Positions 39,396 to 42,668 of a DNA stretch of 64,000 bases are shown piece after piece; within the stretch, counting starts at the first letter, position 1, and each line of letters begins with the position of its first letter. The position numbers and the translations under genes were made by a program. The notes under the pieces were generated by a model. The model saw only the letters and a program-made list of their open reading frames with translations. It searched no databases and was not told the DNA's origin. The stretch is from NCBI GenBank assembly GCA_039028155.1, contig JBCCIS010000028.1, positions 1 through 64,000 on the forward strand, in the 5' to 3' direction. The stretch comes from Pseudomonadota bacterium (lineage in GTDB: Bacteria; Pseudomonadota; Alphaproteobacteria; SP197).

Positions 39396-39659
39396 ATGCG
39401 TATCGATAAAAAAGATGTCAGACGCTTCGCCGTCGTTGCGGCGGGGCTCTATGTCGCGGTTGGTCTCGCCGCGCTGGTCGCGCCCGGTCTGGGGCTGGCG
39501 CTCGTGATTGCGTTAAGCGCGCTCCTGGCACTGGTCGTCGTGCTGGTGCTGTTCCTGCGTGCGTGGCACTGGTTCATCAGCGAGAGCTTCAGCTTGATCG
39601 AAGAGCGCTCGCGCGAATTGCGGGAGCGCCCGCCCGGGCATCGCAACAATCGGCGCTAG
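39396..39659 (+). CDS. Small two-helix membrane protein, unknown function
   Basis: 87 residues from the ATG of MRIDKKDVRRF. A basic N-terminus is followed by hydrophobic segments at about 11-32 and 34-54, then a basic, proline-containing tail ending HRNNRR. No family was recognised. It is divergent from the lytic transglycosylase with 94 bases between starts. The frame is open further upstream, but that part overlaps the transglycosylase promoter region and looks non-coding. Confidence 0.5.
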   Translation: MRIDKKDVRRFAVVAAGLYVAVGLAALVAPGLGLALVIALSALLALVVVLVLFLRAWHWFISESFSLIEERSRELRERPPGHRNNRR

Positions 39660-39695
39660 GGTGGCTGTTCTCTCTCGTTTTGGTCGAGCCGCGTT

Positions 39696-39953
39696 CTATC
39701 CCCTCGTCTCGTCGTCCTCGGCCGTGTCGGTGCCGCCGCTGGCGCGATCGTCGTGGCCGTGCTGGTGGCTGTAATAGGACAGCCTCATCAAACCGACACC
39801 TAAACCCGTTACGAAGATCACGCACAAGACGATGGCGATGATACCGTGGACGCTCATCTCGACACCCTCGAGCGACAGCCAGACATCGACCGCATAATAG
39901 AGGGTGCCGCCGAGGATCATGAGGAGCACTATGGTGACGAGAGCGGTCTTCAT
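39696..39953 (-). CDS. Small membrane protein, conserved hypothetical
   Basis: 85 residues: a signal-anchor-like helix (about 3-28), a second helix (about 36-60) and a His/Asp-rich acidic tail (HQHGHDDRASGG). The layout resembles short alphaproteobacterial inner-membrane proteins of unknown role. The tail could bind metal, but this is speculative. It is transcribed away from the riboswitch leader, so the two share the region around 39960-40060. Confidence 0.6.
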   Translation of the reverse strand: MKTALVTIVLLMILGGTLYYAVDVWLSLEGVEMSVHGIIAIVLCVIFVTGLGVGLMRLSYYSHQHGHDDRASGGTDTAEDDETRG

Positions 39954-40040
39954 TCCTGTATCGCTCCGGTGTTGTCGGCAGGGTGCATGACGCGTGCTCC
40001 AGAATCGTAGTGAGGACCGTCACAGATCGCGCGGGTCCGC

Positions 40041-40068
40041 TTGATTCCTCTGCGCAAGGTCTTAACAT
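40041..40068 (+). promoter_or_regulatory. Candidate promoter of the riboswitch-parA transcript
   Basis: TTGATT (40041-40046) and TAACAT (40063-40068) are 16 bases apart. Transcription would begin near 40075, right where the structured leader starts. That placement supports the call more than the hexamer scores do. Confidence 0.45.
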
Positions 40069-40075
40069 TGCGCGC

Positions 40076-40118
40076 ATCGGCTGGAAACGCCGATATGGGC
40101 AGCCGGTAACGGCTCCCA
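40076..40118 (+). other. Two leader hairpins preceding the riboswitch
   Basis: ATCGGC/GCCGAT (40076-40094, seven-base loop) and AGCCG-GTAA-CGGCT (40101-40114, GNRA-type loop) stack directly before the riboswitch core. They may extend its P1 stem or help fold it. They are not part of the minimal GEMM consensus. Confidence 0.45.
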
Positions 40119-40120
40119 GA

Positions 40121-40208
40121 TAAAGGCAAACCGGTGGAAACACCGGGACGCAAAGCCACCGGCCTTCACCTCGGCAAGCGAGGATAAGGTAGCGGGGTTA
40201 CCAAAGGG
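40121..40208 (+). ncRNA. Cyclic-di-GMP-I (GEMM) riboswitch
   Basis: The core matches the GEMM-I consensus closely: AAAGGCAAACC, the P1b stem CCGGTG-GAAA-CACCGG with its GAAA tetraloop, then the invariant GGGACGCAAAGCC, a second helix (CCTCG-GCAAG-CGAGG) with a receptor-like CCTT/ATAAGG flank, and the closing GGTAGCGGGGTTACC. The class binds c-di-GMP and regulates downstream genes by transcription or translation. No terminator follows before the next start. The Shine-Dalgarno GGGAAG of a short ORF directly abuts the 3' edge, which favours translational control. Downstream are a possible leader ORF, a ParA ATPase and an RHH-like protein. Confidence 0.9.
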
Positions 40209-40218
40209 AAGTCGTACC

Positions 40219-40371
40219 ATGTGTTGTGACAAGACAAAGCCGTCCGCTGCCATCTGGAAGACCTCAGGTCTCCCCACAACCGATAGCGCCTCCCCTTGTG
40301 CGGCCATCTTGGCGACACCGGGTTTTCTGCGCTGTCAATCCACTGTCGCCACGCGGGGTCCTTCATGCTGA
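40219..40371 (+). CDS. Possible cysteine-rich leader peptide
   Basis: 50 codons from an ATG preceded by GGGAAG at seven bases, which itself touches the riboswitch. The predicted peptide begins MCCDKTKPSAAIWKTSGL and has cysteines at 2, 3, 27, 39 and 50. Its TGA overlaps the first parA start by seven bases, an arrangement suited to translational coupling. A small hairpin AGACC-TCA-GGTCT (40259-40271) lies inside. No homologue is known to me, and the ORF may be chance. Confidence 0.35.
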   Translation: MCCDKTKPSAAIWKTSGLPTTDSASPCAAILATPGFLRCQSTVATRGPSC

Positions 40372-41135
40372 GTTCCATGCGCGTTCTTGTTGTCGCCTCG
40401 CAAAAGGGCGGCTCCGGCAAGACGACCTTGTCTGGTCATCTTGGCGTCGAGGCCGAACGCGCGGGCCACGGTCCGGTCGCTCTGATCGACACCGATCCCC
40501 AGGGCAGCCTTTCTCAGTGGTGGAATGCCCGCGAGGCCGATACCCCGGCTTTCGTTCAGTCGAGCGGACAGACGCTGCGCGACGATTTGATGGCTCTCAG
40601 AGAACAAGGTTTCAAGCTGGTCGTCATCGATACGCCGCCTGCCGCGACACGCGAAATCTCTGAAGTCGCCGCGTTCGCCGATCTCGTCATTCTGCCGACC
40701 CGCCCGAGCCCCCATGACCTGCGCGCCGTCGCTTCGACGATCGAGATCCTGGAGCAGCGCGGCAAAGCCATGGTCTTCGTGCTCAATTCCGCGACCGCGC
40801 GGGCGCGCATCACCGGCGAGGCCGCCATTGCCCTGTCGCAGCACGGCACCGTCGCCCCGGTCACGGTTCATCACCGGGTCAATTTCGCCTCCAGCATGAT
40901 CGACGGCCGCACGGTGGCCGAGATCGATGAGGAGAGCGCCTCGGCCAAGGAAGTGTCCGAACTGTGGGCCTATCTGTCCGATCGCATCAGCCGTAAGCAC
41001 ATGGTCGCCCTGCCCGGCGGCGTCGAAAAGGTCGAGCAGCCGACGCCTGCGGTTGCTCACCCCGTCGCACCGGAAGGCCTGAGGCCGAACCAGCCTTTCG
41101 GCCGGCGCGGTCGCGACGAAATCCACCTGACATGA
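40365..41135 (+). CDS. ParA/MinD-family ATPase
   Basis: Deviant-Walker ATPase of 256 residues. Walker A is ASQKGGSGKTTLSGHLG with the signature Lys14 and catalytic Lys19; A' is VALIDTDPQGSLSQW; Walker B is LVVIDTPPA. Such proteins position plasmids, chromosomes, chemotaxis clusters or other cargo by gradients on DNA. It is not the chromosomal parA of a parAB-gid cluster: no parB, gidAB or replication gene is nearby. The start at 40365 has GGGG seven bases upstream and overlaps the leader ORF; 40377 is an alternative. It is controlled by the c-di-GMP riboswitch leader. Confidence 0.88.
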   Translation: MLSSMRVLVVASQKGGSGKTTLSGHLGVEAERAGHGPVALIDTDPQGSLSQWWNAREADTPAFVQSSGQTLRDDLMALREQGFKLVVIDTPPAATREISEVAAFADLVILPTRPSPHDLRAVASTIEILEQRGKAMVFVLNSATARARITGEAAIALSQHGTVAPVTVHHRVNFASSMIDGRTVAEIDEESASAKEVSELWAYLSDRISRKHMVALPGGVEKVEQPTPAVAHPVAPEGLRPNQPFGRRGRDEIHLT

Positions 41136-41154
41136 CCAAGGACGATAGAGCGTC

Positions 41155-41619
41155 ATGAGCAAAGGCAAGGTAGCGGTTCTGCATAGCGGCCTGTTGGCAC
41201 GCAAGGGCGAAGCCCGTCCGATGGCGGTGTTTGCCGCGCCGCCGCCGGCCGCGCCTGAAACGGTCGCGCCTGAAATGGCTTCATCGCCAACGCCGGCCGC
41301 GCCAACCGCCGAGGTTTATCCACAGGTGGCCAAATCCGGCCACAGCTCGGACACAATGGAGCCGCAGCCTGGCATCTCAAGTTCGGGCATCAAGCTGCCG
41401 CCTGAGTTAGAGCGCAACGGCAAGAAATCGAAATCAGGTCCGCGCACGGAACTTCACGCGCGATTGGCCAACGCGTCGCACAGGCGACTGAAGGTTGCGT
41501 CGGCCCGTCTCGGTCGTTCGCAGCAGGAGATCGTCTCCGCCGCGATCGACGTCTACCTCGACTACATCGAGGACGAAGTGCTGAAAGGTTGCCGCTGCAT
41601 GAGGAACGCCCGGGGCTAG
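41155..41619 (+). CDS. Ribbon-helix-helix-like partner of the ParA protein
   Basis: 154 residues in two parts. The N-terminal 95 are Pro/Ala/Ser-rich and probably disordered. The C-terminal 50 (HARLANASHRRLKVASARLG, then RSQQEIVSAAIDVYLDYIED) have the strand-helix-helix pattern of RHH DNA-binding domains. The last residues carry a CRCMR pair of cysteines. It starts 19 bases after parA and ends just before a strong terminator, so the two form one unit. By analogy with ParA partners it may be the DNA- or cargo-binding adaptor, which is inference. Confidence 0.7.
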   Translation: MSKGKVAVLHSGLLARKGEARPMAVFAAPPPAAPETVAPEMASSPTPAAPTAEVYPQVAKSGHSSDTMEPQPGISSSGIKLPPELERNGKKSKSGPRTELHARLANASHRRLKVASARLGRSQQEIVSAAIDVYLDYIEDEVLKGCRCMRNARG

Positions 41620-41652
41620 GGACTTACGCGCTCGACCCCTTGCCCTGGCGTC

Positions 41653-41698
41653 GCGGGCCGGTGAGATTCCAAGCATCTCACCGGCCCGCAACTTTTTT
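41653..41698 (+). terminator. Intrinsic terminator of the riboswitch-parA-RHH unit
   Basis: A 15-bp perfect GC-rich stem, GCGGGCCGGTGAGAT / ATCTCACCGGCCCGC (41653-41667 and 41675-41689), encloses a seven-base loop and is followed by AACTTTTTT. It also faces the end of the esterase genes on the other strand. Confidence 0.92.
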
Positions 41699-41708
41699 GG
41701 CCGCTAGC

Positions 41709-41774
41709 TAGAGCATTTTCCGTTATCTCGGAATCTGTGCCGGCCCGCTCCCCCTCCTGGCCGCTAATGCTCTA
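41709..41774. repeat. TAGAGCATT inverted repeat with flanking GGCCGCTA copies
   Basis: Nine-base arms TAGAGCATT (41709-41717) and AATGCTCTA (41766-41774) enclose about 48 bases. GGCCGCTA occurs at 41699-41706 and again at 41759-41766. The right arm contains the stop codon of the esterase. The ends resemble the element at 28835-28896, suggesting a dispersed family, possibly MITE-like. Confidence 0.45.
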
Positions 41775-42668
41775 ACCAGCATGCTGCGTGATGAACGCGC
41801 CGGCGCGTGTCAGTGCCGCGTTGGCTTCCGGCACCTCCGGTGCCAGATGATGCCAAACGTGTGGCGCCCCCTCTTCGATCTCCAGGACGACCGTGCCGCC
41901 GGCGGTCGTCATGCCGTTCGCCAGAGCGTGCGAGTCGTCTAGCAGCAACTCGGTATCGCCGACCTGGATCAAGACAGGCGGCAGACCTGAGAGATCGCCG
42001 TAATGGGGGGCGACATGAGGATGACGCAGGTTCTCGCCATTGAGATACGTCTCGACGAATGCCTCCAGCTCCTCGACGCTCAAGAAGACATCGCGATTGG
42101 GATCGCCGGCACGCCACGTGCCCTGACCTTCCATGTCACACCAAGGCGATATGGCGACCGCGCACGCGGGCAGCGGCAGGCCTTCATCGCGCAGACGCAA
42201 CATGACGGCGAAGACCAGGCCCCCACCGGCCGAATCACCGGCGACGGCGATGCGTACGCTCTCGCCCACCTCCTGCGAGAGCGCACGGTAGGCCTCGACG
42301 CAGTCGTCGATAGCGGCGGGAAACAGGTGTTCCGGCGCCAGGCGGTACTCCGGGAAGTGGAGCCGGCATCCCGCCGCCGCAGCCAGGCGCGTGACGATCA
42401 TGATGTGGCTCTTCGTCGAGCCCATGGCATAGCCGCCGCCGTGGAAATAAAGAATGGCGCGTTCGGGATCGGCGTTGGGTGGATCGAACCGCCACCCGGG
42501 CACGCCGCCCAGCGCTGCGCGCTCGGCCGCCACGGTTTCGTCGCCCGGGAAAGCGTCGCCCAGTTCGTCGTAAGACGCCCTTCGCTCGGCCATGGTCGCA
42601 TCCTCCGGCAGCACAGCCTCGGCCAGGATCTTCTTGTAGCGTTCGAGTTCAGCGCTCGGCATAGTCAA
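41772..42668 (-). CDS. Alpha/beta hydrolase, hormone-sensitive-lipase family (copy 1)
   Basis: 298-residue esterase. The oxyanion motif HGGGYAMGSTKSH, the nucleophile elbow GDSAGGG, the acid in LIQVGDTELLLDDS and the His in EEGAPHVWHHLAPE form the HSL catalytic set. It is a tandem paralogue of the next gene, with the same order of motifs (NGENLRHPHVAPHYGDLSGLPPVLIQVG). Substrates of this family range widely. It starts four bases inside the end of copy 2 (ATGA), so the two are co-translated. Confidence 0.9.
   Translation of the reverse strand: MTMPSAELERYKKILAEAVLPEDATMAERRASYDELGDAFPGDETVAAERAALGGVPGWRFDPPNADPERAILYFHGGGYAMGSTKSHIMIVTRLAAAAGCRLHFPEYRLAPEHLFPAAIDDCVEAYRALSQEVGESVRIAVAGDSAGGGLVFAVMLRLRDEGLPLPACAVAISPWCDMEGQGTWRAGDPNRDVFLSVEELEAFVETYLNGENLRHPHVAPHYGDLSGLPPVLIQVGDTELLLDDSHALANGMTTAGGTVVLEIEEGAPHVWHHLAPEVPEANAALTRAGAFITQHAG

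Follow-up and report, generated by a model that had tools for sequence, protein, structure and literature searches.

Riboswitches that sense c-di-GMP are known from genes of motility, adhesion, and the cell surface; what, then, might such an element be doing ahead of an operon for a ParA ATPase, and which component of the cell would that operon place? We approached the question with evidence that is computational throughout, in a stretch of alphaproteobacterial DNA of 64,000 nucleotides (hereafter the window). The window carries, in this order, a c-di-GMP-I riboswitch, parA, and the gene of a partner protein, and the pairing of riboswitch and parA is conserved in other genomes. The account towards which we lean, if only by a little, is that a canonical c-di-GMP-I riboswitch acts as the translational off-switch of a chromosomal operon encoding a small ParA and a ParG-like adaptor, the cargo of which pair would likely be a DNA site. 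The parts are of known kinds, and their combination, together with the ParA–partner family itself, appears to be undescribed: the literature searched, which was accessible in part, yielded neither work joining a c-di-GMP riboswitch to ParA or to chromosome segregation, which link the original riboswitch surveys may mention, nor a description of this ParA–partner pair.

The ParA ATPase, its partner protein, and the candidate cargo

The ATPase, of 256 aa, is encoded on the + strand at 40365–41135 and belongs to the small, ParF-like type: the protein matches the AAA_31/CbiA domains, carries the deviant Walker A motif QKGGSGKTT, lacks an N-terminal helix-turn-helix (HTH) domain, and has ParF as its closest solved structure (PDB 4dzz, E 3.4e-15), which results agree with the orphan-type ParA ATPase that an earlier note on this DNA had proposed. 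The NCBIfam model ParA_partition (NF041546) aligned with residues 4–199 at 169.9 bits, just under its curated cut-off of 180. The start that we prefer is the ATG at 40365 (MLSSMRV), which is kept in relatives. Compared with genome G003, the gene exhibited 68 synonymous and 5 nonsynonymous codon changes, and is under strong purifying selection. Near its end lies an FGRR motif (41097–41108, + strand); among the 108 complete ParA orthologs, 102 have FG[RK] within their final 45 residues. The earlier remark that no parB is near holds for the neighborhood, but the genome does encode one ordinary ParB elsewhere; the window ParA is therefore an additional one.

The partner gene follows at 41155–41619 (+) and encodes 154 aa, which sequence we divide—on the basis of an alignment of 16 relatives, AlphaFold2, and Foldseek—into an N-terminal tail, a disordered linker, and a predicted ribbon-helix-helix (RHH) domain. 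No Pfam family matched the protein, and a RelB-like antitoxin model scored a weak 20.5 bits (cut-off 50). The tail LHSGLLARKGEARP (41179–41220, +) is a candidate contact for ParA, with L9, A15, R16, K17, G18, A20, and P22 invariant among the 16 relatives; the partners have in common an N-terminal L..LLARKGxAxP, a linker of highly variable length, and then the RHH region, and many of them, the window's included, contain a C-terminal CxC. An LLARKG-type motif occurs at most 500 nt 3' of parA in 96 of 107 orthologs, with or without a riboswitch. AlphaFold2, run with the 16 relatives, returned the first 100 residues as disordered, followed by two confident C-terminal helices (106–119 and 123–142; pLDDT 91–96 over residues 111–140). 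The Foldseek matches were mainly RHH proteins (MazE6, PutA, CopG, TacA1, AmrZ, CdbA), with weak E-values (best 1.1), owing to the small size of the domain and to the use of a monomeric model. An RHH fold at residues ~98–142 (41446–41580, +), such as had been suspected, is accordingly predicted from the consistency of these matches and the sequence pattern. The strong terminator described before is also there: at 41653–41698 (+), a 15-pair stem (41653–41689) with a loop of 7 precedes a T run (z −5.44).

With respect to function, we reason by analogy with ParF/ParG. In two genomes (G015 and G004) the tail of the partner is kept while its C-terminus, judged by eye, resembles an excisionase-type HTH that replaces the RHH; and since RHH and HTH-like C-termini are thus exchanged on a retained tail, we infer that the tail would contact ParA and the C-terminus DNA. 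As an ATP dimer, ParA would then bind the nucleoid; its ATPase activity would be stimulated by the invariant LLARKG tail of the partner, and the RHH domain would attach the partner to the cargo, most likely a site on DNA.

Two further arrangements in which an orphan ParA works outside parABS are instructive: PpfA/TlpT and ParC/ParP, which position chemotaxis arrays, and McdA/McdB, which positions carboxysomes by means of a small adaptor unrelated to ParB (PMC9178275). The former pairs share with the window an orphan chromosomal ParA, but the own genome has neither CheA nor FliM; the latter shares the orphan ParA with a small non-ParB adaptor, but the window ParA retains the signature lysine (KGGSGKTT), its adaptor is a predicted RHH protein, and no carboxysome genes were seen nearby. 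The closer likeness is to ParF/ParG, the type Ib partition system of plasmid TP228, in the small ParA without an N-terminal HTH and in the adjacent partner with a flexible, arginine-containing N-terminal tail and a C-terminal (here predicted) RHH. In contrast to ParF/ParG, the window pair is chromosomal by gene order rather than plasmid-encoded, is preceded by a riboswitch, has a distinct LLARKG tail and an FGRR ParA terminus, and showed no convincing iterated centromere-like array in its vicinity, where isolated short repeats (39640–40400 and 41560–41800) were all that we found; this last observation weighs against our preferred account. CdbA, an RHH protein of Myxococcus that binds c-di-GMP, likewise ties that fold to the second messenger and was among the weak matches of the partner, but the resemblance is at the level of the fold, CdbA is not known to involve a ParA, and in the window the predicted point of action of c-di-GMP is the RNA.

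The cargo, which the earlier note had rightly left unnamed, might alternatively be a protein body—a pilus base, an adhesin machinery, a storage granule, or an envelope complex—with the RHH serving only for dimerization or autoregulation, which explanation we regard as plausible though somewhat doubtful. Suggestive of such a body are the genes that adjoin parA: genes for Sel1/SPOR and TPR/SPOR proteins flank the parA of Sphingomonadales and Kordiimonas, which has no riboswitch (L084, L085, L121), and in the families f4, f91, and f116 and in the Parvularculaceae genes for DUF2336 proteins stand beside parA. These neighbors, however, vary between lineages, and the alternation of RHH and HTH-like C-termini on the same tail is what would be expected of DNA binding. 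Flp pilins (25 of 26 carriers tested) and the PHA synthase PhaC (22 of 26) are present in nearly all carriers, but those counts, lacking a base rate for the class, are indecisive, and we set aside the Tad pilus and the PHA granule as specific candidates. In several families, one or two DUF2336 proteins are conserved immediately ahead of the parA operon (L078, L183, L179, L182), a domain on which our literature search found no paper; and in G293 a Sel1 gene itself lies behind a c-di-GMP-I riboswitch (L195:3245-3988).

Taking, then, a DNA site as the probable cargo, one may go a step further and propose that the FGRR-tailed ParA and the LLARKG-tailed RHH partner constitute an undescribed, widespread alphaproteobacterial family that places or organizes a specific region of the chromosome beside an ordinary ParABS, in a dose set directly by c-di-GMP through a translational riboswitch. 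This extension we offer tentatively, as more doubtful than probable; if true, the positioning of DNA would be tied to a second messenger in cells that lack flagella. In either event a concrete protein pair is defined, whose cargo is a testable question.

The c-di-GMP-I riboswitch and the leader RNA

The aptamer occupies 40115–40206 of the + strand, where a covariance search of the genome with RF01051 gave a full-length match (40115–40205, model positions 1–87) of 79 bits, well above the curated cut-off of 35 (E 1.4e-15), with no match to that model in any of 14 control genomes. The GEMM-I assignment made earlier thus passed the covariance check, as did the location of the element, except that the aptamer begins at 40115 and not at 40121. 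The RNA resembles other RF01051 riboswitches in the full length of the match, the canonical ligand contacts, and the GAAA-capped hairpin, which is present in the window aptamer; it differs in its target, a ParA–partner operon, and in a predicted translational platform with a competing hairpin upstream.

That hairpin, predicted at 40096–40118 on the + strand (fold z −3.85 over 40074–40122), would compete for the 5' strand of P1. In the minimum free energy fold of 40096–40240 (z −3.43; none of 200 shuffles as good), P1 is extended by the pairing of 40105–40117 with 40206–40218 (both +), which latter strand reaches up to the leader start codon, and a Shine–Dalgarno sequence (SD), GGGAAG, at 40206–40211 falls inside this predicted extension, which ends at the leader ATG. 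The two structures are thus predicted to be mutually exclusive. Among ten ParA-linked relatives, 96.3% of the cells of the upstream hairpin were paired, against 26–56% in slid controls; two pairs had changed on both sides, and the covariation score was attained by 4 of 500 letter shuffles, which changes come from few, related sequences, where kinship alone can yield such pairing. The covariation therefore supports a competing structure, short of proof. Over 75 copies, the complementarity between the 5' strand and the SD of the same copy averaged 3.81, compared to 3.24 ± 0.09 upon shuffling.

Between the aptamer and parA we found a leader ORF of 50 codons (40219–40371, +), absent from the earlier note, which begins 13 nt 3' of the aptamer and whose stop overlaps the parA start. 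The peptide is not conserved: 9 nonsynonymous and 3 synonymous codon changes separate the window from G003, which proportion indicates no purifying selection, so that a conserved functional peptide is not supported for that pair. The simplest reading of this arrangement is a translational off-switch, the sign of which is predicted. At low c-di-GMP the upstream hairpin would hold the 5' strand of P1, leaving the SD free, the leader ORF would be translated, and parA, whose start overlaps the leader stop, would be translated in turn through coupling; at high c-di-GMP the ligand-bound P1 would extend into a 12-bp helix over the SD, and the operon would be turned off.

Other c-di-GMP-I riboswitches can activate, and the pairing with the SD is partial or weak in some copies, for example in f116; the same operon might consequently be switched on by c-di-GMP, or be controlled through Rho-dependent transcription or RNA stability instead of ribosome access. 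We nevertheless consider a different sign or level of control unlikely: the SD directly abuts P1, with a start codon 6–14 nt 3' of nearly all copies; in the window the extended P1 of the predicted fold covers the SD; and between the aptamer and parA the + strand has a single intrinsic terminator-like site, a weak stem of 5 pairs at 40308–40322.

With translational repression by c-di-GMP retained as the preferred reading, the question remained as to whether c-di-GMP is the ligand, since a window-wide Rfam scan listed 40116–40206 under RF03167 (c-di-GMP-I-GGC; 70.7 bits, cut-off 59) as the better clan match, leaving out one overlapping match of the clan. In the Vc2 riboswitch the residues contacting the ligand are G20, A47, and C92 (PMC4744006). 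The equivalent positions of the window aptamer are the canonical G, A, and C, and vary little or not at all across an alignment of 26 alphaproteobacterial copies, for which reason we read the RNA, confirmed as to its family, as an ordinary c-di-GMP sensor. The position of A47 speaks against the GGC family: an A is found in the window and in 26 of 26 copies, whereas the RF03167 consensus has a G—to which G the GGC in the name presumably refers—and RF01051 also scored higher in bits. A GGC variant with a ligand other than c-di-GMP is therefore disfavored, and we regard it as very improbable. Automatic annotation may mislabel such copies, in that RF03167 was listed despite the greater number of RF01051 bits.

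Recurrence of the pairing in the Alphaproteobacteria

Of 385 alphaproteobacterial genomes sampled, 33 were found to carry the riboswitch, which is accordingly not rare in parts of the class; orthologs of the window ParA occurred in 52 of the 385. The survey upstream of those orthologs, in which an absence of the riboswitch would have spoken against the earlier proposal, disclosed the element immediately before parA at 16 of the 63 loci, the 16 being spread over 15 genomes and six families (f1, f4, f91, f116, f126, and f137). A covariance model built here, in which presence corresponded to 70–94 bits, distinguished it from absence, and the element was present at 4 of 80 loci taken from named genome contigs, mostly of Sphingomonadales. 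The host order has 34 copies, in 11 of 16 genomes, and behind them stand parA operons, a soluble family of ~90 aa, and small proteins of apparent membrane type. On the ParA tree, several deep branches of which are long and unsure, the presence of the riboswitch required 5 changes, compared to 18.7 upon shuffling (none of 500 shuffles as low), which result fits an inheritance of the riboswitch together with parA through few gains and losses. Most parA orthologs, above all those in Sphingomonadales, have no riboswitch; control by c-di-GMP is therefore not essential to the ParA system. Sphingomonas leidyi and Marinicaulis flavus are cultured relatives that have parA and lack the riboswitch.

Because at least six families share the pairing, some of them devoid of flagella, c-di-GMP probably controls the placement of some cell component, perhaps DNA; and a link of this kind, recurring from family to family, would imply that such placement is governed by a second messenger through RNA alone. 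GGDEF cyclase domains were encoded in all 16 genomes examined, three of them in the own genome, which also speaks for the explanation that we prefer. That genome holds two further c-di-GMP-I riboswitches, one of which (G000:C18:55672-55764, − strand; L002/L004) precedes a 35-codon leader and a paralogous ParA of 278 aa with no partner gene: the second riboswitch–parA copy counts for the explanation that we prefer, while the want of a partner counts against it. The other (G000:C52:11909-11987, −; L003/L005) precedes a protein of 99 aa that matches nothing in Pfam and seems to contain two membrane helices; its homologs lie behind riboswitches in seven relatives, and a Sel1/peptidoglycan-binding gene is located further down at the C52 locus.

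That the locus has no present function, being either antitoxin-like or left over from a plasmid partition cassette, as the resemblance to ParF and the weak RelB-like match might suggest, is highly improbable: the recurrence in six families and the selection on parA speak against a remnant, as does the gene order around the locus, which is conserved across genera (in the window family with tmk and genes for a PBP5-type carboxypeptidase, an RlpA-type protein, and a lytic transglycosylase as neighbors), and the antitoxin reading fails for want of an adjacent toxin gene. The positioning of flagella or chemotaxis arrays in the manner of FlhG, ParC, or PpfA, and with it the motile/sessile link envisaged at the outset, is scarcely credible in this lineage, since, although FliM is present in 36 of the 52 ParA genomes and genes for flagellin and CheY-like proteins lie behind other c-di-GMP-I riboswitches of the class, neither FliM nor CheA was found in the own genome (97% complete, in 118 contigs) or in G001, G015, G018, and G153, all with the riboswitch–parA pair, and the neighbors at ortholog loci are DUF2336 or SPOR/Sel1 genes instead of flagellar or pilus genes; flagellar or chemotaxis cargo is thus refuted here unless the flagellar genes went unassembled in all five genomes.

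Certain other loci deserve mention. In G015 (L052) and G004 (L062) two riboswitches stand in tandem, the first before a 114-aa apparent membrane protein and the next directly before parA, and in G006 (L037) a degenerate copy retains the riboswitch and the RHH-type partner, with no parA ORF found. The ~90-aa soluble family (..AFQDAIDKAI..GLIVEPSFQ..), which has no Pfam match, lies directly behind riboswitches in f1 and f67 (L050, L057, L060, L063, L176). Elsewhere in the class the targets include, besides the flagellin and the CheY-like receiver, a BTLCP protease, a Sel1 protein, and—just under the cut-off—a PilZ-like protein, which set fits ordinary c-di-GMP regulons. In f39 the riboswitches precede similar secreted proteins (L189, L186, L198, L202, L209), the one tested being a BTLCP (Peptidase_C93) protease, which recalls LapG.
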